DNA of 64,000 bases from Polytrichum commune (taxonomy: Eukaryota; Streptophyta; Polytrichopsida; Polytrichales; Polytrichaceae): contig OX485809.1 in NCBI GenBank assembly GCA_950295325.1, positions 9,054,001-9,118,000 of the forward strand, in the 5' to 3' direction. Shown here in pieces: positions 17,305-29,786 of this stretch; position 1 is the stretch's first letter, and the number at the start of each line of letters is the position of its first letter. Made by a program: the position numbers and the translations under genes. Below the pieces are notes generated by a model. The model was not told the origin of the DNA. It did no database searches and worked only from the letters and a program-made list of their open reading frames with translations.

Positions 17305-19693
17305 CTACAAAAAGTACATGCGGGATCTCATATCACCATGCACTTCAGGCACTTTGACATGCTCTCCGCTTCCATCGGGGTGCCTGTGCAGGCAGCCAGG
17401 AGTGTGGCAATGCATCTCCTTCTTCGCCTGATAGTAAATTCGAGCCCGATGAGCAACGAGGTGCGCATAGTAAGCTGGAGCAACCATCGAAGTGGCCCTC
17501 GTACACCGCGCAAATATGTAGCACAATTTGTTCGTGAGGTTCTCAAAATCATCAATCCTGCAACACAAGAAGGGATTCAAAGATACGGATGCGTTAGGTG
17601 ACATGAGAATCTTGGAAGGAATCTTGCCATGCGGCGGCCAATCTTAACGTGGATGATCAATGCCTTTGTTAAAAGCATAGTTATAAAGTGAGGAGATATG
17701 TAAAGAAGTGAAAGGATACACATAACAACTCGAGAGAGTATGTATAGAGGCAAGGTTCGCACATAGTGGTATGTTTTGGTGCTAGGTTTTAACTGTGTGT
17801 TTTTCTAAATTTATCTTAGTTCACACATGACCGTGTGTTAATTAACCATAGTGCTAAATTTAGGAGAGAGGGAAAATGGCCGCACACATGAGTGTACCTC
17901 CAATTCATCCATCCACCATAAATACTTGACTCCCTATAGGTTTGTAGTCAATTCATCTCACTTGATTAGGACTACTACACTAATTCAAGGTTCCTCAAGC
18001 TAATTCTAGTGTCAAAATTATCAAAAAGATTAACCTTCAGGTTATATTTCAAGACTTGTATGTTGGATGGATGAGAGAGTATGCTCATATGCAATAATTC
18101 CCTCTCTCCATACTAATGTACCACTGCGTTTAGCAAAATGTTGACTTAACATTACATCTTAGCCTTTAATGTGTTAGTTGGCCTTGCCATCAATAGTAAC
18201 TTAGGACATGGAGGTCGAGAAGGATAATTATCCCAACCCATAAATGCAGTGTCAACGTAGTAAGCTTAATCTTATTGGCTCTCTCTCCAAAGGCAAGACT
18301 CATTACAATGATCATGATAAGTATATATTGTGGTCGCACCATTGAGCTTAACCATAACCAATGTAGTTTGAGCTAAGTCCGTGTATAGCTTAGATTTAAT
18401 GCTAACATGCACTTAAAAAGCTAGCTTGCTTTTAGTTTCTTTAACTTGCATCCAATAGCATGGTTGCCTTCGATAATGGTGAATAAACAACCCTAAATAA
18501 ATAAAATACAAGCTTTATGTTGCCCAAAAAATATACAAGGTGATGGAGATCCAATACAGAGAGCAAGGCAATTCTTTAAGGTTCACCTAGTGAAACCACG
18601 TAACCCCAAGGAGGGCAAAGCACCCAAACAAGATTGACTAAGCCTACTACACCATTTAAACCTATTATTGTGGGTTGATAGCTACCGAGGGTAGAAAATA
18701 TCATGGACCAGTGGCCACAATAAATTATCTGTGGGGTGAAAATTGGGTTAGCTTAAAAATTAATATACTATATCAATATTCAAATATGATGTAATGTTAA
18801 CCAAATATTGATATTTTGATATACTATATTGACATTATATCTTCCAACCTGTAATATTTCATGTTTGTGTAAAAATTATTGGTTCCATATTCACAACTCT
18901 ATACATATGATATTGTGTTTCAAAATTGGTGTGATTCAAAAAAGCATTGCATTGACCAAAACTATCCTGGTATGACACAATTATAGTGGACCACAATGAT
19001 AGGTGTAAATGGTGCAGCGCCGACCTCTACAACAAATTCTTTGGATCCCGTGGTGTGGTGTGTGTAAGGAGACATTGATGCAGAGTTTGAATCATAAAGA
19101 CGTCACTTTCAGATTGACGATCACATAGACGAAAAGATGGTGGCAGGTGAGTACTACAGTATATATTGTATTTTGTGTCACCGATTCTATTTGTCTGGCT
19201 AATTGTAAACCGCCCGTGTACTATTTGTCAGTCCTTGTAAGGAAATTCAGACATTACAAATTTACAATGTTGCAATCACTATCACTTACCAAGTGATTTT
19301 TCATCCAAATTTCAATCATCCACGATAGTATTTCACTACAAAAATGTTGGGATGTAAAATATCCCAAAAGTGGATGAACTAGAAGTAAATCGGGGTGACA
19401 GTAGTTGAGAACGTATTCATAAGAAGTGTCATTAGACTCATTTCCACAGCGACATAAAATACCACATAACACTAGTCACAATATTTCGTGTACTACTACT
19501 CACGAGAATTGGAGGTCATCCCACAGCATGTGATAGTGAGTTGGCCGACTGGTGCCCCTCTCGCCCGCGTGGCTACACAAGTAGAAGTCGAAGTCCCGAG
19601 GGTGGCAAATCACATCATCAACCACAGTGCCCGGGAGCACGTTCATGGTGCGGCATTGTGTGTTCCGAGTGGAGCTTCTTATGTTGCGTTGCC

Positions 19694-19730
<37 letters not shown>

Positions 19731-22700
19731 TAGCAAGTGGGGCGCAGTGAATCCACCTCCACCTAGTGATTCCTGGGGGTCCAGGAGACTCTTCTTGCAG
19801 CTCATTCGGAAGAGCCGAGTGTGGTGCCGTTTCTGGACAACCACAAAGGTGACGAGCGGGGAATACGGTTGCGAATTCGAGGAGTTTTGGAGTTGTGCGG
19901 CGGCAGCTTTGACTGCTTGCACCTCCTTCTGGAGGACCTCGGGGAACTGGCTCTCGCCCACTCCGTCTCGGTAGAAAATGATGATCTGCATGTTTGTTCA
20001 TGCATACAACGTAACATAATTGTATTTTTTTTTTTTAAGAGACAAATGAGACAATGTTTTATTTTATTGTTAGAAGAACATACAAGGCTATCAACTTCCG
20101 AAACAAGGAGTGGGTGTGGACTCTCTAAGGTACATGCAGTGGAACCAAAGGAAGGTCGCAAGAAGGGTAAACAACTTATACATGATTGACTGAACCAACA
20201 TTAGGTGTCCGAATGTTCCACATGATCCTAGAATTTGAATGATGACTTGCACAACAATTTTTACATGGTTGTTGATGCGTGGTCCCACATAACACTCCTA
20301 TGAAGCTTAATAACAATCCAACCCAATTGAATTGTGTGCATGTGGCAAAGATCAATCTGGAAGAAGAAAAATCGCAAAAATTCACATACTAGTGGTCACA
20401 CCACACAATGTTGTTAATGTCTATTCTTTACAAAATACAAGGAAACACATCATCGCACTTGGCTAACGACTTTAACATGGCATGTCCACTATGCTTGGTA
20501 AAGGATAGATGTCACCATGGGCCCGTATGTTGTAGTGAACACTCATCTGACCTACTTTGCCACTAATGCAACTCAACAACTTGGGCACCTACTATACGAC
20601 TCATGGCAAGGCTCCTTGCATTCATTACTCAATTCATAAGTCGATTGGTTCACAAAGAACAGGATGCACCACTACTATGGCCAAACCCTAAATCCTAACG
20701 TTAGAAACAAGGAGACACATTAACGCCCATAATTGATGACCCAAACATGGCTTGACTGTTGCGTACAATAATGAACACGCGATGCCCTACCTTTAGATGT
20801 AATAGACTCCCCATCCCCTACCTCACCACTAATGCAGCTTAGTAGGTTGAGCGCCTACTAGCCCAATGGCAAGGCTTCTCGCAAAAATGCCTAGTTCATA
20901 AGTTAGTGGGTTCAAAGACAACATAATGTCACGCAACACTACAATCTATCATACATCTAGTTGTTTGGTTCAACACAAGCAAACTATTTTGTTTTTCCAC
21001 ATGTTGTATCCACATTGGTCAAGCCTAGCCGTGGAAATTGCACTACAAAGTCATGTTATTGTGGGGCCACAATCACTCTCTAGAGCCCATGCTAACTCTC
21101 ATAATGGGAATTGATGTAGGCCACATGAATTTTTCAACCCACACTAAATTTCAAGTGGAAACTAGCGTAAAACACTTTAACTTCTTTTCCTAAAAACTTA
21201 ATGTGAGCGATTATTTCATTTTGTGCTACTTTTTTCCTAAAACCAATATTCAACATCTTGATCGGAAGTCTTCATGAAGACTTAGAGCCGAAGACCTAGG
21301 GCCTTGGACCCGTGTTAATTCCACCTTGACTAGAAAAAATTAGCGTGATCCACGTCAAGTATTTCCACACAAATTTTCCACCCACACGATCAGGACTATT
21401 TGGCGTGGCTTTTGGCACTCAAAAGTGTCGAACCACACGACGCTCAACACAACGGGTACTATGGCGAAAACCCTAATTAGCATGGCATGAGGGGAGTAGA
21501 AATGTGACGCCGAAGTACATCAGGGAGTCGATTCTGGTTAGCAAGCTTCCACTCGTTGAGTAGCTCGACAACAATGGCTTGCAGGTCGCTAATGATCTCG
21601 AGGCGGTGCACCTGCTGGCGGTGGCGAGCTATGAAGCGCCCTGAATCTGGCCAGTCGTTGCTGGCCACCACCGCAGCGATGGAGGGCGTCCCCTTGTCAC
21701 TGGCGGAAGACGGGTGGCTTACATCTGCCCCAAAATATATGCACGTCCTCTTCTGGCCGATGCTCACGAACCTTGCTGGGTGGTCTTGCTCATACGAGAG
21801 GCGGTAGTTGCGCCCCCCGCACTTCAAATTGATCTTCATGAGCAAGTTCGTTAGCGAGGTGCGCATTCCTGGAGTCCGGCCTGCACAGACGTAACAAATC
21901 AAGGTAGTTTCGAACGTATGCGGAGGGTGTGATTTGGTTGATCTGTTTTTGATCGGACACCTATATGTGATTGGTGTGTGGTTGAGTGAGGATCGCAGAA
22001 CAAATTACACAGCAAAGATACATGTTCAAATGAGATCGAACTGTGTCTTCAGATTTTGTTGACTACTCCATACTCAACAGTGAGCACGATTCGAGGATCC
22101 CTGAACTCTATTCGATTATGGGATCGAGAAACATGCACTTTCAATAACCAGAATTAAATCGTGGGAGATTTGATTTGCGACACCAGTGTCGTTGTGTAAA
22201 TCAAATCGGTAGAAGAGGTGGAGAACATGAAAAACGAACCAAATAACACTCACATAACACTCACATATCTTGTGGACTAGACATAGCAACGAGAGGAGAG
22301 TGGATGATAAGCCGCAGGAGCAGTGAGTCATCCACCTACTCGAGATAGTTAGTAGTCAGGACCGATCAGCTTATGGTCAAAATCTGAGAATTATGAAGGA
22401 TACCATGTCTCCATGGATGAAACATTGCGACTGGTTTTGATAACCCTACACTAATTATCCCAATTAGTGCATTGCTATAACGTCTTACATAGGAGCTCAA
22501 TTTTTACTAATGAAAATTCATTAGGTTGCTTGGAAAATATAGAACATAAATGACTGTGCTTGATAACAAGTGACATACTCATTAGATAGTTAGAGCATTG
22601 CGTAACTCCAAGTAGTAACATGCACTTATTGGGATTATCAGTGTAATTTGCTCTTGGATGAGTGATCAGTTATGAATTGTAAGGCTTCACACCATGCATT

Positions 22701-25700
22701 GGACTTGAACGTCACTTGAACTCTATCAATGAAGTAGAAGAATGATCATTGCAAACATGACAAAGTTGTGAGAGTCTCTTCACTCGGTAACTTGGCTATA
22801 CAGCCTATACTGACTCCATCATCAAAGAGTTAACCTTAATTTGACTTTTCGTTGGGAGTTGGTCGTCCCCTACGATTTTTCATTGGTTTTTTTGCATACA
22901 AAATCAATCATTTCTTTCCACTTGTGGTGCATGCTCAGAGGTTGTGTTTAAATTTGGACGAAGAGCACCTATCTTGGTTCATCAAAGGCCAAACTTATTT
23001 TAGCACCTCTTGGCATGCCCAAATGAGTTTGACCAGGTTAATGAACCAACATAGAGTATTCTCTTCAAACCTTGACATCACCTACCAAAAAAACACCACC
23101 GAAAACTTACCAAACATGGAAGGCGTTGTATGCATAACAACCAACTCTTGACCAAAAGTCATGTTGAGTTATCTAGGATGACTCTATTGACTCAGTTATT
23201 TGAGAAATAGGTATGAAGGAGCTGATAAGGCCAGCAAATGCTTTAGAAAATAAGAGGAAATTTGTTAACTCACCTGTATGCGAATGGAGGGTCGAGTCAG
23301 AGACAACTTGAATGGGGACTCCTAGTTCGACGTCACCATAATACTTGATATTGTTGTAACAACAACTCCGCTTTCCTCGCACAAAAACAATGATCAATTG
23401 AACTTGATGCCCATTTTGTCTGTCTTGCTCCGGAATTGCATTGTCAATTTCTTCATACGAGGCTCTAATTGCTTGAACGGGATCCATCTTCTCTGTGCAT
23501 GTAAAGAATGATTGGCATGTCGAAGACATCTGTAATCCCATTTGCTGCGCGCGGCTGCCCAAAGTCACCAAGATAACAAGGTTGTATTATTACCATGGCC
23601 ACAGTGCTTCAATTTCAAGAAAACCCAACGGACATTAACTTATAAGGATTAGTAGGTAAACCCCAAGGTCTGGGTGGCTTGACAAAACCATTTGAGCACC
23701 ATCACCTCTAAGCCCTTCAATCATGGAGATCGAAGGCTGATTGAGGGCGGAGGAGGATGACGGTTAAGTTCTTGGGAAGTTATCCTGGTTTCCAATCTTG
23801 GAACATCACCTCAGGCACCAAATGATTAATTTAAGGATAATCTAATCAAGATCGTTCGAATCGCAAAGGTTACAATAACAAAATTAATAAGAATGACAGT
23901 TCCTAGAAATAGATGATGTGCTAGTTGACAGAGGTCATATGCTATCATATGTTCCTTCAATGTGAAAACTAGCAATATCAAACTAAAATTGTACAAAATT
24001 TGCATAGATGTTAAGAGCGAGTACACAACGTTGTTCCAACTAGTTCTGAAGTTTTTGCTCGCAAGATTCACTTTTAAATTTGCTTTTAATATCTAAATAG
24101 GCAAAGCAATCTATAATCAAATGAAATGTTGACCTCGATGTACGGAACATCATCAAGTTTGGTTTGACATGGGTTTACATGGCAAGTTCATTTGCGAATT
24201 CTCTTTTCTCCTTTTGCTCCAAGACAAGGCTACAATCACAAATGCCCCACCAATCAATAATTGCGCTTTCAAGGGCCTGCCGATTCCCCCATGCCCAAGA
24301 GCCAGAAACTCCAGGGTCAATATGACTTTCCATTTTGTCGCTCCCTGGCCGTGAGTTGTATTCTATGATTGGAGCCTTCAAGATTCTACTTGTGATCTCT
24401 GTCATGTTTAGGTGGAAGGCAAGTTTGAAAGCCTGAGAGTATGGATCCCTGTCATGATTGGGATTATTGAGGAATTAAGCACAACCAGGATCCTCTCACT
24501 TTTATATATTTTTATTTATTTATTTATTTATATTTATATATAAAGCACTTGATTAGTGCCAAATATTTTGTTTTTTTTTTGTTAAAACATTAGGGACTTT
24601 GCTAATTTTGCAATTTTTTGTTAACTCTTAGAAAAATCATAAACTAGTTTCTTGAATATGAAATACTTAAGTAAAATACTTTAATTTATGTCAAATCTTG
24701 TATGTTATTATGGTATGTAGATTTGCAAGAAGTGCATGAGTAGCAAGACCACAAATTGCAAAGGCATTGATTCCGGAAGATGGAAGACAACAGATTTCTT
24801 TGTGATATTCAATGGAGGTGTGAAGAAATGCTCATGGGTGTGACAGAATGTAGAATCTCCATCGAACGTCATCAGGGAATAGAGTTATCTTTTAAATCAA
24901 TGGGATTCTTTGTCGGGGTTAGTCCCTCATAATTTTCCATTGGTTGTTTTGCATACAGACATTTTTTTTCTACTTGTAGTGGTGCATGCTTGGAGGTAGT
25001 TTTTGAATTTGAATGAGAACTTATTTCGATTCAGCAAGGACCAACCTCCTTTTAGTACCTCTCTTGACATGCCCAAATGAGTTTTTCAACCCTCAATGAA
25101 TTGATAGAAAATGTACTTTGTTCAATCCTGAACACTACCTTAAGCATGCACCGAAAACTAACCAAACATTTGAGGTGTCGTACCCAAACAAATCACTATA
25201 TTCGTTAATTTGAGACTTTTTCTTGTCTCAAATTAATATATGAACCACAACAACATGGTCTAATGTTTGGGTCGTCCTACCTAAACCATCTTGATATGAA
25301 GTCTTAATTGGATTCTTGATATGAACACCCGCTTCAAAGTATTTGCATCTTACAACATTCTCCAATATCTGTGTGATTTTATCCATGTTCTCATATTTGT
25401 AACTGTCTCAAAATGCCGAAAAAGTCCCAAATTAACGAATATAGTGATACAACCAACTCCCAACCCAAAGTACCGATGAGTTAAAGTGGGAAATTTTTAT
25501 CATAATATTTTTTTTAAGAGATTTGAGAGTGGGTAGATTTCTCTTGAGACCTGTGTTCTTGCAATGTTTCGTATAAATAGCTGGCCTCCATCAATTTGGA
25601 GCTGCTACAATACCTTTGATCAGGATTTCTCATGGATGCAATCTTCTGCAATTGCACCTCTTTGTCACTCAGTTTTCCATTGTACTTTGTTCCGTTTGCG

Positions 25701-28700
25701 ATAAATGCCAACTCCATTGGCACATGCAATGTGGACTTTGTCGATTTCAATGCTAGACATGGTAGAGACTTGTACTTGATATCAATATTGTACTTCTCTT
25801 TAAAATAAGCAATCAACTTTTTCTCAGTTCCATCCGGCTTTGATCGGAAGGAAATTTGATTTGTTCTCTCTTTTGATAAATCGTCAACCTTATATCTTCG
25901 AGTCACACCTCCACCGAAATAAGCCATGATTACCACTGTTCCCCGCAGTAGATCCGCAACATATTCCCTGGATTCACAAAAGAATGGAAACACAACCTTC
26001 ATCCTCATTTATCCATATATTAAGTTAGGCGTGCCTAAAATCCATCACAGCAATATTAAACTGGACACCTACATTTGGGTGGTAAGTAGTTAGGTGTGGA
26101 TCTAAGAATGGACACCAAAACAATGTGTGTTTGAAAGAGATTGGAGTACGTGCTTAGAATATGCTAACCGTTTTAGGCTCAATAGGCCACATACGTGACG
26201 GGACATATATGGCAATTTAATGAACACGGGCATCTTCACTTTGATAATTATTAAGATATTCATATGAGCTCTGAAAATTATGAAGAAGATGACTAGGTAC
26301 GATTTGGATTTGCTAATAATCTCGCACTAATTGTGTGTTTCCTATCCTACAAGAAGTAGGTGCAGAGAGGAAAGTATCTGAATAACACACGTAGATTACG
26401 TTATTGCATCTATTAAGTGAGCTTACTTAGTCATGTGATTCAATCCTAGATCATTCTTGGGTACGTATAGTTTGTGAGACGTTCAATCACATGCATAATT
26501 GGTAATGTTAAAATAAGAAGCTCAGCAAAATATTCGTGAAAATTCATGTTGATATGGGTTATAAGGTCCGTTGAACAAACGTTAATGCTGTGTATATATT
26601 AAGAGTAGATTCACATTGCATTAAATACAAACCTTAGTTTCTCATGGAATCCAGAGTCTGGGTTGAACTTAAATTGTGAATCGTAATCTCGCACCTTATA
26701 TTTGACAAAGTCGAGAACTGGAATGTTCTCTTGACCTATTTGGCTCTTGAAAAAGCAGCATAATGACACATCAACATTGAGGGCCAGGCCTTGTTTCGTA
26801 GGTCGCACACTCTTGAAAAATCCATGCCATGCAACAATGAAGCCGTTGACAACAGTAAACCCGTATTTCTCCGCGTAAGAACATGGGCCTACATCCGTAA
26901 TATCCATATTTTGGTATTGATTTTCTCTCATTACATGACCAAGAGCAGAAACATATTCTTGAATATTTTCATCCGTTGTACCATTGACATATTTCTTTAG
27001 ACCGTCACCAGATAAACCTCCATCTTTCCTCAAATTAGCCTTAGGACTCAATGTGCACTTGTAGGATGTTGCTGGATAATCTCCCCTGCAACATGTAGAG
27101 TGTTTTTTTATGTCCAACTAAAAGATTGAGTGCAATTAATTTATCAACTCAACACAGTCAAGATTCAAACAATGTTTGCAACACTCAAAATATATGATGA
27201 GGTCATGTTCAAACCTGTTAGGATCCCCATAGTTAACGACAATGCCCTCTTGTGTTTGAAAAGGAAACTCCTCATTGCTATAGAGAGTCTCCACTCCATC
27301 AAAAACTAAGAGAAATTTTCTATCATACATTTTCTCCAGCTTTTCTTCTAATAAAGATTTGAGTCGTCGTCTCACCGCCGTACTTAGTGGCTTGGGTTCA
27401 ATCTTGATGGTCTTCACATATATGGTATCAAACTTGAAGCCATCTTTCACTTTGAAGTGGTTGGCCATAATTCGTTCGACCTGCACATGCATAACAAGTC
27501 CACTTTCTTTTGATTTTTTTCCCAAATATGTCTTCTGGTAACCTACTTCACATGTCAGAAAGCAATAAACCAATACATGTCCCTCCTAAAGAAGCATTAA
27601 TCCAATTAATATCCTTTGTGCAACATGAAACGGTCCATGATAACTTAATGAAAAACATGCACACAAATATGGACTTTACAAATATATAGTTGATTTGATT
27701 AAAATCACCCCCCCCCCCCCCCCCCCAGTTTGTTCAATCAAACTGCCACTGAGCTTCAGTGTCTTAGAGAAACAGTAATGTGTTTTGGCCTTTACTTAGT
27801 TATAAATAAAACAAAACAAAATCAAGATAAGGAGATGGATGGGTCATGAATGGATTTTGTGTGATTTTTTGGTTCTCTACCGATCCTGAAGTCCCTTGTC
27901 TGCCTGAGCGGGCCACCAAACTTAATGCAGGTTTCTCACCCATAAAGTATCCTGAGAAATTTCTAATGATATTAGAGGAAATACTTTCAGCGGTTGAACT
28001 AGCAGGTGCTGCATCGTGCCTTTCATCACTTCCCAAGCACACAGGAATGGCTAAGTTTGGAGCCTCAGAGTCAGGTTCCAGTGTCAAAGTATTAGGTGCA
28101 AATTGGTGTGATTCAAGGGGATCCACAGCCGTCATTTTTGTAACAGCGATAGCTTGAGGGGGCTCATCACACAATTTGTTGGCAGGCAAGAATGGGGCTT
28201 TCACCATACCGGGACGCTTGCAAGGAATCCCATTTAATCCGTAGCAGTCGTTTGTAGGAGGCAAATATATCCGTAGAGTAGTATTGCGTAAGTTGGATGA
28301 GCAAGGCTTAGCAAGGTTACCCAAGGGAGATGCCCAGGAGTTTTGGGGTGAATCTGAGCCTGTCCAAAGTATTTGATAAATTTATGGCTTACAGAGGATG
28401 CAAGATAAAAAAAATACGCTGATCAGTTTACTCTGCTTGCTATCACATCTAAATGCAGTCATTGGTTTCATCAAGTCTGAAGCAGACTCGATTGCATTGA
28501 AAATTATAGCCCTATTCTACCCAAATGTATGCGTCTCCATCTCAGGGCCCTCCCAAAGACAATGTGTGCTTGTCAAGTAAATCGACAACAGGTTAGGTCT
28601 ATTGTTTCTAATTGCAACTTGGTTCCCAATATATGCTTCTTTGACACTATGTAGTCTGTAGTAGTTTGTGATACATAAATCAAGGAGGTGATTTGATCCA

Positions 28701-29786
28701 AGTCTAAAAATGTGATTTAATCCAATCGAGAATCAAATATGTAGGTAACTTGATTGGCAAAAGAAACTCAGCATAACATGATTGCCCAACTGATTTTGAC
28801 AATCAAACTGGAACTTCAGAGTTGCAAGGAGGATCAAATAAGCATACAATTTCATTGGCAAAAAATCTCCAGCATAACATGATTGCCCAACTGACTTTGA
28901 CAATCAAAGTGGAACTTCAGAGTTTGCAATTGGGATGTAAGGGCGTCTCCACTTGTGTACACGCAATCGGACCTCTATTATTGACTTTGCAGATCTTTTT
29001 TTAGGGCAAACTAGCATGGTTTCCCACCCATAAGCATGGTTTTCCACCCACCTCTATTTAGTCTGTAGTAGTTTGTGATACATGCTTTCTATGACATTTC
29101 GGTGGGCAGTAAGAATTTTGGATAGATAGATAGAGAAATATGTGGACTTTGGAAGTGGCATGTGGTCTTGCTTTAGAATCAAGAGCAAAACAACTTATGG
29201 CAGTGACTCATTTGTGAGCTCTTTAGCAAGGAGCAGTTGGCTTGCCTGAGGGACACTTGTGGTGTGGGACAGTAGCAGGGTAGGAGGACCAGCCAGCTTT
29301 GTAAGAAAGCGGCAACGCAGGCCCAGCGTAACCCCCATGCAACGCGCGGTGCCAGGAATGGGAACTCAGGTATCGTGCTTCCCAGTTGGTATCGTACTGA
29401 CCAAACTTGCGAGACGGCTGCGGAGGCAGGGGGACTGTCCTCGTCGCCGGCGGGCCTTTCCCCTTCTTGTGCCATTTGATAAGACTGAAGTCAGGGGCCT
29501 CGGGCTCTGGAGGTGGCGAGCAGCTCGGGTGGCCCCCGGGGTTCCAGAACGATTTCGGGGGTGATTTTTGGGGTGACCGCAACGGCGATTTATGGGGTGA
29601 CCGCAACGGTGATTTATGGGGTGAGCGCCTTGTTCTAGGACTACATGGTGAAGGTGAGCGTGAGTTTCTGCGGCTAGCTGCTCGGCTACTTCTTTTGCTG
29701 GCTCTACCACAAGGACAACAATCGGAATAATTGTCCAAGAAACTTACACAGGGTTGTGATGGTGAAGGAATATCCCCTGCCGACAT
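17305..29786 (-). CDS. AGO: Argonaute protein, ten exons, slicer-competent, divergent
   Basis: Exons (minus): 29786-29246, 28359-27881, 27480-27215, 27085-26633, 25967-25551, 24448-24179, 23554-23274, 21868-21519, 19985-19504, 17557-17305. All phases agree and give 1263 residues. Argonautes bind small RNAs and use them to silence or cut target RNA. Residues 1-340 are a Ser-Pro/Arg- and Pro-rich extension. The N domain begins near 345 ([11 protein letters not shown]), and the linker has [22 protein letters not shown] is about 600-710, MID about 790-905 and PIWI 905-1240. Slicer residues D951 (YFGADVSHP), E993 (HRLEIISDL), D1026 (FYRDGV) and H1212 (YYAHL) are present. [13 protein letters not shown] and [11 protein letters not shown] place PIWI nearer the AGO1/5/10 group than AGO4. 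Oddities are a polyglutamine insert at 1105-1116, a C-terminus MYFL instead of the usual Phe/Tyr-Cys end, and a GC-AG first intron. Least certain are exon 1, the first intron and the exon-5 donor, which could be at 25614. Confidence 0.88.
17878..18135. repeat. Dispersed repeat inside Argonaute intron 9, second copy at 62905
   Basis: The blocks CCCTATAGGTTTGT, ATGTTGGATGGATGAGAGAG and CCCTCTCTCCATACT match CCCTATAGGTTTGT, ATGTTGGATGAATGAGAGG and CCCTCTCTCCGCTTG in the copy at 62905-63165. It is non-coding. The rest of intron 9 (17558-19152) is AT-rich with no ORF of note. Confidence 0.65.
19153..19494. mobile_element. MITE of the CTACACTAAATA family next to the exon-9 splice donor
   Basis: The left end is CTACAGTATATATTGTATTT and the right end CAATATTTCGTGTAC. 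The interior has CACCGATTCTATTTGTCTGG, TTGTCAGTCCTTGTAAGG and TCATCCAAATTTCAATCATC, as in the family. On the gene strand the splice donor (GTGAGTAGTA) runs straight into the MITE end, leaving only about ten bases between them. Confidence 0.8.
20430..20945. repeat. Diverged tandem duplication with SINE-like pol III box motifs, Argonaute intron 8
   Basis: Two units (about 20430-20690 and 20703-20945) share ACAAGGARACACAT, CACTAATGCARCT, TGGCAAGGCT and AATTCATAAGT phrases. Unit 2 has TAGCCCAATGG, fitting a pol III A box, and about 50 bases later GGGTTCAAAGAC, close to a B box. This suggests a tRNA-derived SINE, but no 3' tail or target duplication could be set. Confidence 0.4.
21038..21392. repeat. 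Dispersed repeat, partner of 10965-11515, Argonaute intron 8
   Basis: It matches the copy at 10965 in order: GTCATGTTATTGTGGG, TTTTGTGCTACTTTTTTCC, AAGTCTTCATGAAGACTTAG and ATTTTCCACCCACAC. The roughly 250-base insertion of the other copy is lacking here. The element ends about 130 bases from exon 8. Confidence 0.75.
21925..22260. mobile_element. Foldback MITE related to 9168-9650, Argonaute intron 7
   Basis: The left end has GTGATTTGGTTGATCTG and TTTTGATCGGACACCTA. The right end has GAACCAAATAACACTC. Between them GAGGATCGCAGAACAAATTA parallels GAAGATCAAAGAACAAACAC in the 9.2-kb copy. It is more decayed than that copy. Confidence 0.55.
22447..22645. mobile_element. Short MITE, partner of 3708-3928, Argonaute intron 7
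   Basis: The terminal inverted repeat is CACTAATTATCCCAATTAGT... at the left and ...GGGATTATCAGTGTA at the right, with GCATTGCGTAACTCCAAGTA near the right end. The interior GAGCTCAATTTTTACTAA and AGAACATAAATGACTGTGC matches the other copy. Confidence 0.8.
22852..23142. repeat. Direct repeat in Argonaute intron 7, partner in intron 5
   Basis: TTTTTCATTGGTTTTTTTGC, GGTGCATGCTCAGAGGTTG, CATGCCCAAATGAGTTTGA and CACCGAAAACTTACCAAACA recur in the same order at 24905-25185. Both copies lie in introns of one gene, on either side of exons 6 and 7. It is non-coding. Confidence 0.8.
24905..25185. repeat. Direct repeat in Argonaute intron 5, partner of 22852-23142
   Basis: This is the second copy of the intronic repeat (TTTTCCATTGGTTGTTTTGC, GGTGCATGCTTGGAGGTAG, CATGCCCAAATGAGTTTTTC). 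It ends right beside the 253-bp MITE at 25194, so the two elements are adjacent or nested. Confidence 0.8.
25194..25446. mobile_element. 253-bp MITE with 29-bp terminal inverted repeats starting CACTA
   Basis: The left end CACTATATTCGTTAATTTGA (25194 on) and the right end ending AAATTAACGAATATAGTG (25446) are inverted repeats over 29 positions with one mismatch. The CACTA start is that of the CACTA superfamily, but a clear 3-bp target duplication is not seen; an AT on each side is the only candidate. It is non-coding and lies in Argonaute intron 5. Confidence 0.8.
26058..26345. repeat. Dispersed repeat in Argonaute intron 4, partner at 58365-58640
   Basis: TGGTAAGTAGTTAGGTGTGG, ATCTAAGAATGGACACCA, TATCTTCACTTTGATA-type and GATTTGCTAAT phrases recur in the same order at 58365. 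It is non-coding and of unrecognised class. Confidence 0.7.
27708..27726. repeat. C homopolymer (19 bases) in Argonaute intron 2
   Basis: A pure run of 19 Cs lies between exons 2 and 3. On the transcribed RNA strand it is a G-run that could form a quadruplex near the splice sites. Confidence 0.9.
28752..28929. repeat. Tandem duplication, period 101 bp, Argonaute intron 1
   Basis: ATTGGCAAAAGAAACTC, AGCATAACATGATTGCCCAA and GGAACTTCAGAGTT in the first unit recur from 28853 with few changes. It is non-coding. Confidence 0.88.
29561..29629. repeat. Coding minisatellite, 24-bp unit, in Argonaute exon 1
   Basis: Three units of about 24 bases (GGTGACCGCAACG core) encode repeats of RSPHKSPL on the minus strand, giving the Ser-Pro-rich block around residues 53-75. 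The frame is kept because the unit is a multiple of three. Confidence 0.88.

Follow-up and report, generated by a model that had tools for sequence, protein, structure and literature searches.

A 64-kb stretch of genomic DNA, called the window here, carries on its minus strand, between positions 29786 and 17305, a gene for an Argonaute protein that we refer to as the window AGO. A first-pass annotation had described it as a divergent Argonaute of ten exons that keeps all four slicer residues behind an unusual N-terminal extension. The gene model was built from homology, reading frame and splice signals. The ten exons could be rebuilt with agreeing phases and without an internal stop, and encode 1246 amino acids (aa) if exon 5 ends at 25614 or 1267 aa if it ends at 25551. 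A related gene, locus L001 together with L007, lies on contig C1 of the same genome (assembly G000; 408 Mb, of which 406 Mb are in seven contigs of 42–78 Mb) and is called the C1 relative.

Gene model and conserved domains

Eight introns of the window AGO start with GT, and intron 1 opens with GC, flanked by otherwise strong donor sequence (CCTCAG/GCAAGC). We prefer the longer form of exon 5 as the predicted one: the end at 25551 gives a linker as long as that of the C1 relative and lets an SKLM stretch match human AGO2, while the ArgoL2 score (20.7 bits for 25551, 22.9 bits for 25614) speaks slightly against it. Exon 2 ends where AGO1- and AGO4-type genes have an RPG.G..G stretch ahead of the NHF motif. 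Exon 1 has a GC content of 0.571 against 0.32–0.41 in the introns, and two other exons are equally GC-rich. A TATA box lies at -121 from the exon 1 ATG.

The gene has the N, L1, PAZ and MID/PIWI architecture of eukaryotic Argonautes. When the 907 core residues of the shorter model were searched against Pfam, ArgoN, ArgoL1, PAZ and Piwi exceeded the cut-off and ArgoL2 fell short of it. A search of PDB gave the top score to Arabidopsis AGO10 (358 bits), followed by human AGO2 (319 bits). The DEDH tetrad of slicing Argonautes is complete, with D955, E997, D1030 and H1216 of the 1267-aa model aligned to D597, E637, D669 and H807 of human AGO2. The first-pass annotation had listed these residues as D951, E993, D1026 and H1212; because the offset is a constant 4, its exon joins must have differed slightly from ours. 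Also kept are all of the columns Y529, K533, Q545, K566, K570 and R812 (human AGO2 numbering), which we take to be the residues of the guide 5'-phosphate pocket. The window AGO is probably a working RNA-guided RNA-cutting protein.

The core of the C1 relative and its exon 2 end comprise eight exon pieces of 848 residues, stop-free as modelled. ArgoN, PAZ and Piwi exceeded the cut-off here; ArgoL1 and ArgoL2 did not reach it. The guide pocket residues are kept, and K, H and R occupy slicer columns 2–4, so that three of the four slicer residues are lost and the protein is probably slicer-dead.

Coordinates of the window AGO exons, of a repeat within exon 1 and of the C1 relative
Feature	Position	Strand	Content
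Exon 1	29246..29786	-	Start codon 29786; 180 codons + 1 nt for the Ser/Arg/Pro-rich tail; phase 1 GC donor
Exon 2	27881..28359	-	Remainder of extension; phase 0 donor
Exon 3	27215..27480	-	N domain begins (VERIMANHF...)
Exon 4	26633..27085	-	Remaining N domain, L1
Exon 5	25551..25967	-	PAZ and L2 start; end 25551 (preferred) or 25614, phase 2 either way
Exon 6	24179..24448	-	L2 and MID start
Exon 7	23274..23554	-	MID, part of guide 5'-phosphate pocket
Exon 8	21519..21880	-	MID/PIWI; slicer residues D955, E997 (1267-aa model)
Exon 9	19504..19985	-	PIWI; slicer residue D1030; between TRLF and NVLPG, 55 residues that include poly-Q
Exon 10	17305..17557	-	PIWI end; slicer residue H1216; stop
24-nt minisatellite	29563..29628	-	2.8 copies; encodes RSPHKSPL repeats
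L001+L007, C1 relative	C1 about 18590865-18577530	-	Sister Argonaute, Ser/Arg/Pro-rich open reading frame at exon-1 place

A GTT/CAA microsatellite (window 19694–19731) encodes the poly-Q tract of the 55-residue PIWI stretch, which has no counterpart insert in the C1 relative; a small intron is possible there. In intron 2 the sense strand has 19 consecutive G (window 27708–27726).

Placement among the Argonautes of the genome

A six-frame Piwi search of the genome (23 matches) identified at least seven Argonaute loci: two AGO1-type (L002 and L003), three AGO4-type (L004–L006), the window AGO and the C1 relative. A genome search with 757 residues of the window AGO returned 13 rows and no further locus. 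Identity to Arabidopsis AGO10 is 75.8% and 75.9% for L002 and L003 and 39–41% for L004–L006. For the window AGO and the C1 relative it is 33.2 and 33.5%, and the two are 33.0% identical to each other, the figures for the C1 relative coming from a provisional L001 model, with three tiny exons, that was later discarded. The divergence that the first-pass annotation had noticed alongside an intact tetrad is supported. L004 and L005 lie about 29 kb apart on the same strand of contig C5, are 81% identical and are likely a local duplication.

A 100/100 node unites the window AGO and the C1 relative whether or not human AGO2 is part of the tree. The best tree tentatively places the pair outside the AGO1+AGO4 group, which has a support of only 73/80. 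The AGO1 rows group without the pair at 100/99 and the AGO4 rows at 100/100, so the position plainly within AGO1 that the first-pass annotation had named as contrary to its view was not seen, although a join of the pair to AGO1 was not rejected (p 0.131). Placing the window AGO inside AGO1 was rejected at p 4e-5, a result valid only for the window AGO taken without the C1 relative. In trees without L001, the window AGO could be joined to AGO1 (p 0.122) or to AGO4 (p 0.195), and the best tree joined it to human AGO2 (72/81).

Intron positions were compared across the same loci. L002–L006 were modelled with Arabidopsis AGO10 as guide, and every gene model used here is homology-guided. The AGO1-type L002 has 19 introns, 17 of them at the exact columns and phases of introns in the AGO4-type L004. 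None of the introns of the pair stands at the exact position of an intron in L002–L006. Within the pair, each of the seven core introns of the C1 relative has a phase-matched counterpart in the window AGO: six stand at the same column, and the seventh is one column off where the alignment is gapped; the window AGO has one extra. A phase-2 intron of the pair at columns 105–106 may equal an AGO1/AGO4-type intron at columns 109–116. This pattern suggests that the lineage split off before the AGO1/AGO4-type introns were fixed, or that it passed through an intron-poor stage. On the separateness of the lineage the introns seem to us to speak more clearly than the tree, a view tempered by gene models that are all homology-guided.

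The N-terminal extension and its probable counterpart on contig C1

About 340 residues precede the N domain of the window AGO, as had been reported in the first-pass annotation, and all of the tryptophan motifs listed there (FWNPGG, IKWHKKG, TNWEARY and NSWASP) are present. Ser, Arg and Pro are abundant in the part encoded by exon 1. No Pfam family, and therefore no RRM, was matched in the extension, and a protein search of the genome with it matched its own two exons alone, with no second copy.

The exon that leads into the N domain of the C1 relative ends SLLKRPTVKGTSGI and is the counterpart of exon 2 of the window AGO. The two exons show a weak likeness over their last 40 residues, scoring 29.0 where shuffles average 18.9 (28/1000 shuffles reached that score). 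Further upstream lies a Ser/Arg/Pro-rich open reading frame (ORF) of 191 codons, counted stop-to-stop. A strong GT donor and an acceptor, both in phase 1, can join it to exon 2, at a junction picked by hand among candidate splice sites. The phases of the first two junctions (phase 1 between exons 1 and 2, phase 0 between exons 2 and 3) are thus common to both genes. No TATA box was found in the 300 bases upstream of the ATG of the C1 relative.

The window and L001–L007, 134 kb in all, hold 279 ORFs of at least 80 codons. Among these the exon-1 ORFs were ranked by their number of RS/SR and SP/TP dipeptides in the best 80 residues, a test devised after both had been noticed. That of the window AGO ranked first (18), that of the C1 relative second (14), and the third ORF counted 12, ranks that are hard to explain were the two not parts of these genes. 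First-order Markov sequence of the make-up of exon 1 of the window AGO stayed open over that length in 27/4000 draws. Because a like-placed, same-phase Ser/Arg/Pro-rich ORF occurs in the C1 relative, and because the two rank 1 and 2 of 279, the comparison supports exon 1 as a predicted part of the window AGO.

The N-termini of the other Argonautes of the genome look different. In L002 and L003 the ORF ahead of the N domain begins MPRRRKTPRE and continues Gly/Gln/Arg-rich, and in L004 and L005 it is short (no start was found for L006 in the stretch examined). The first-pass view that the N-terminus of the window AGO departs from the Gly/Gln/Arg-rich type is borne out by this comparison.

Interpretation and alternatives

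The usual classification of plant Argonautes has three clades, with N-termini that are Gly/Gln/Arg-rich or short. What can be read directly from the sequence is the domain order, the tetrad and guide pocket, the common exon structure, and the Ser/Arg/Pro-rich exon-1 ORF that is joinable in the same phase in both copies. On balance we are inclined to regard the window AGO as a slicer-competent Argonaute of a lineage apart from the sampled AGO1/5/10- and AGO4/6/8/9-type genes, present as two copies of which that on C1 has mostly lost its tetrad, with a tail that would serve the nucleus or RNA-processing partners. By analogy with its family, the window AGO would bind 5'-phosphorylated small RNAs and cut paired RNA. 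Its tail, basic and presumably disordered, would most likely take it into the nucleus or into contact with RNA-processing partners, and phosphorylation of the many tail Ser residues might tune this. We would guess that the C1 copy binds guides and targets without cutting. A deep lineage with introns of its own, both copies of which have a Ser/Arg/Pro-rich first exon, would offer a handle on Argonautes outside the three angiosperm clades, and with an active/dead pair the roles of cutting and of binding could be told apart by removing the genes from a tractable plant.

Several observations weigh against this reading. Topology tests did not reject joining the pair to AGO1 (p-AU 0.131; AU, approximately unbiased) or to AGO4 (p-AU 0.165), and the branches of the pair are long (1.62 and 2.05 changes per column). 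L001 was modelled with the window AGO as guide and with one acceptor hand-chosen for frame, which may favour agreement between the two. The donor of exon 1 of the window AGO is GC. The exon 1 tails of the two copies align with a score of 54.0 against a shuffled mean of 54.1, no likeness beyond composition, and the exon 2 sequences with 29.0 against 28.6. Exon 1 of the C1 relative would be open by chance in 72/4000 Markov draws. When the residues of exon 1 of the window AGO are shuffled, its RS/SR (9 against 5.1 expected, p 0.056) and SP/TP (11 against 6.4, p 0.029) dipeptides prove only weakly enriched; in the tail of the C1 relative the same kind of shuffling shows no enrichment of RS/SR (12 against 8.6, p 0.13) or of SP/TP (6 against 4.1, p 0.21). 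In the C1 relative an E stands one residue ahead of the K at the second slicer column. Finally, the nuclear role, the partners and the phosphorylation are guesses.

These results also bear on what the tail should be called. An RS domain is defined as at least 50 residues with an RS/SR dipeptide content of more than about 40%. The first 90 residues of the window AGO hold 8 RS/SR dipeptides, which cover at most 16 residues, and a classical RS domain was rejected. The tail resembles SR proteins in being basic, Ser/Arg-rich and SP-containing, and differs from them in this low count and in having no RRM family in the extension. The RS/SP richness claimed in the first-pass annotation holds as a rank among ORFs and is mostly a matter of composition, since the dipeptides are weakly enriched over shuffles. 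Control by proline-directed kinases, also proposed there, fared less well. [ST]P pairs number 13 in the 340-residue extension against 5 in the other 927 residues, but five of the six sites of the cyclin-dependent kinase (CDK) type, [ST]Px[KR], lie inside the 24-nt minisatellite and the sixth abuts the array, and the C1 relative has none in exon 1 and one in exon 2. Because the shuffles are near-equal, the tails do not align and the CDK sites sit in an array, the tail is best called Ser/Arg/Pro-rich and basic, on its residues neither an RS domain nor a demonstrated kinase target.

Compared with known Argonautes, the window AGO has the domain order, tetrad and guide pocket of the AGO1/5/10 clade (Arabidopsis AGO10, PDB 7sva; L002, L003), 7sva having an A at the third tetrad position. 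It differs in being 33–34% identical, in having no exact intron in common with L002 or L003, and in a Ser/Arg/Pro-rich tail where theirs is Gly/Gln/Arg-rich. With the AGO4/6/8/9 clade (L004–L006) it shares domain order and tetrad, but identity is 28–31%, no exact intron is shared and the N-terminal ORFs of L004 and L005 are short. Human AGO2, 33.8% identical, is likewise without a PIWI insert between the E and the third catalytic residue; to our knowledge it has no long Ser/Arg/Pro-rich tail. The plant PIWI insert (block KTWQDPQR, PMC5007885) is absent from the window AGO, as from human AGO2. The available passages of Rodriguez-Leal et al. (2016, PMC5007885) describe a Gly/Arg-rich N-terminal block in AGO1/10, AGO5 and AGO2/3/7 and none in AGO4/6/8/9. 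No plant Argonaute with a Ser/Arg/Pro-rich tail was found in the literature searched, which was represented by partial texts, with subscription papers and supplements outside its scope, and the passages of PMC12069490, PMC13398078, PMC9291395 and PMC10721683 held nothing on the lineage of the window AGO.

The lineage itself may already be known, and its tail alone new. According to the accessible parts of You et al. (2017, PMC5569507), a fourth land-plant clade named 'AGO-like', with functional domains and catalytic residues, is absent from angiosperms, and passages of Wang, Liang et al. (2021, PMC7994812) report AGO-like too. The pair may belong to this clade: compared by description, the window AGO also lies outside the sampled AGO1 and AGO4 groups and has the domains and catalytic residues. 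The description of the clade in those parts of PMC5569507 does not mention a Ser/Arg/Pro-rich tail or intron structure. Its sampling included Physcomitrella and Marchantia, yet members are named there just from hornwort, lycophytes, ferns and spruce. Physcomitrella, in the passages of PMC3565333, has six Argonautes, three AGO1 and three AGO4/6/9 homologues. Both points count only if the plant is a bryophyte. We regard membership as a serious possibility, though somewhat short of an even chance.

It is rather doubtful that a retrocopied AGO1- or AGO4-type mRNA, free of all introns, founded the lineage, which would then have gained new introns and evolved fast. Such an origin would fit the absence of exact intron positions in common with L002–L006, where L002 and L004 share 17, and the topology tests that allow either attachment. 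Against it, the introns common to both copies would require any retrocopying to be older than their split, the phase-2 intron at columns 105–106 may be one retained from AGO1/AGO4-type genes, and the KTWQDPQR-like insert is lacking, as in human AGO2.

In a bolder form, the lineage would be an ancient one that predates the AGO1/AGO4 split or stands apart from it, and would have an exon structure of its own and a tail like that of SR proteins. Its cutting and non-cutting members would act as a pair in the nucleus, at transcripts during their synthesis or splicing; we hold this form to be unlikely as it stands.

It is improbable that exon 1 lies outside the Argonaute transcript, with a start in exon 2 or 3 and an extension of about 100 residues or none. 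The GC donor, an ATG in exon 2 (GMVKAPF), a frame open just ahead of exon 3 and the unalignable exon-1 tails would agree with that. Against it stand the like ORF of the C1 relative, at the same place and in the same phase with a strong GT donor, the ranks of the two ORFs in RS/SP density, and the TATA box upstream of the window AGO. That both genes are decaying, as a pseudogene pair or as fast-evolving non-functional copies, is suggested by the long branches and by the three slicer residues lost in the C1 relative, and is very improbable in view of about 900 core codons in the window AGO and 848 codons in the C1 relative, as modelled, without a stop or frame break and with the guide pocket residues kept in both copies.

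Apart from the Argonautes, the minus strand of the window holds a 288-codon open frame at 32–895, with no Pfam match at E 0.01. A DYW deaminase search of the genome returned 22 rows, 14 of them full length.

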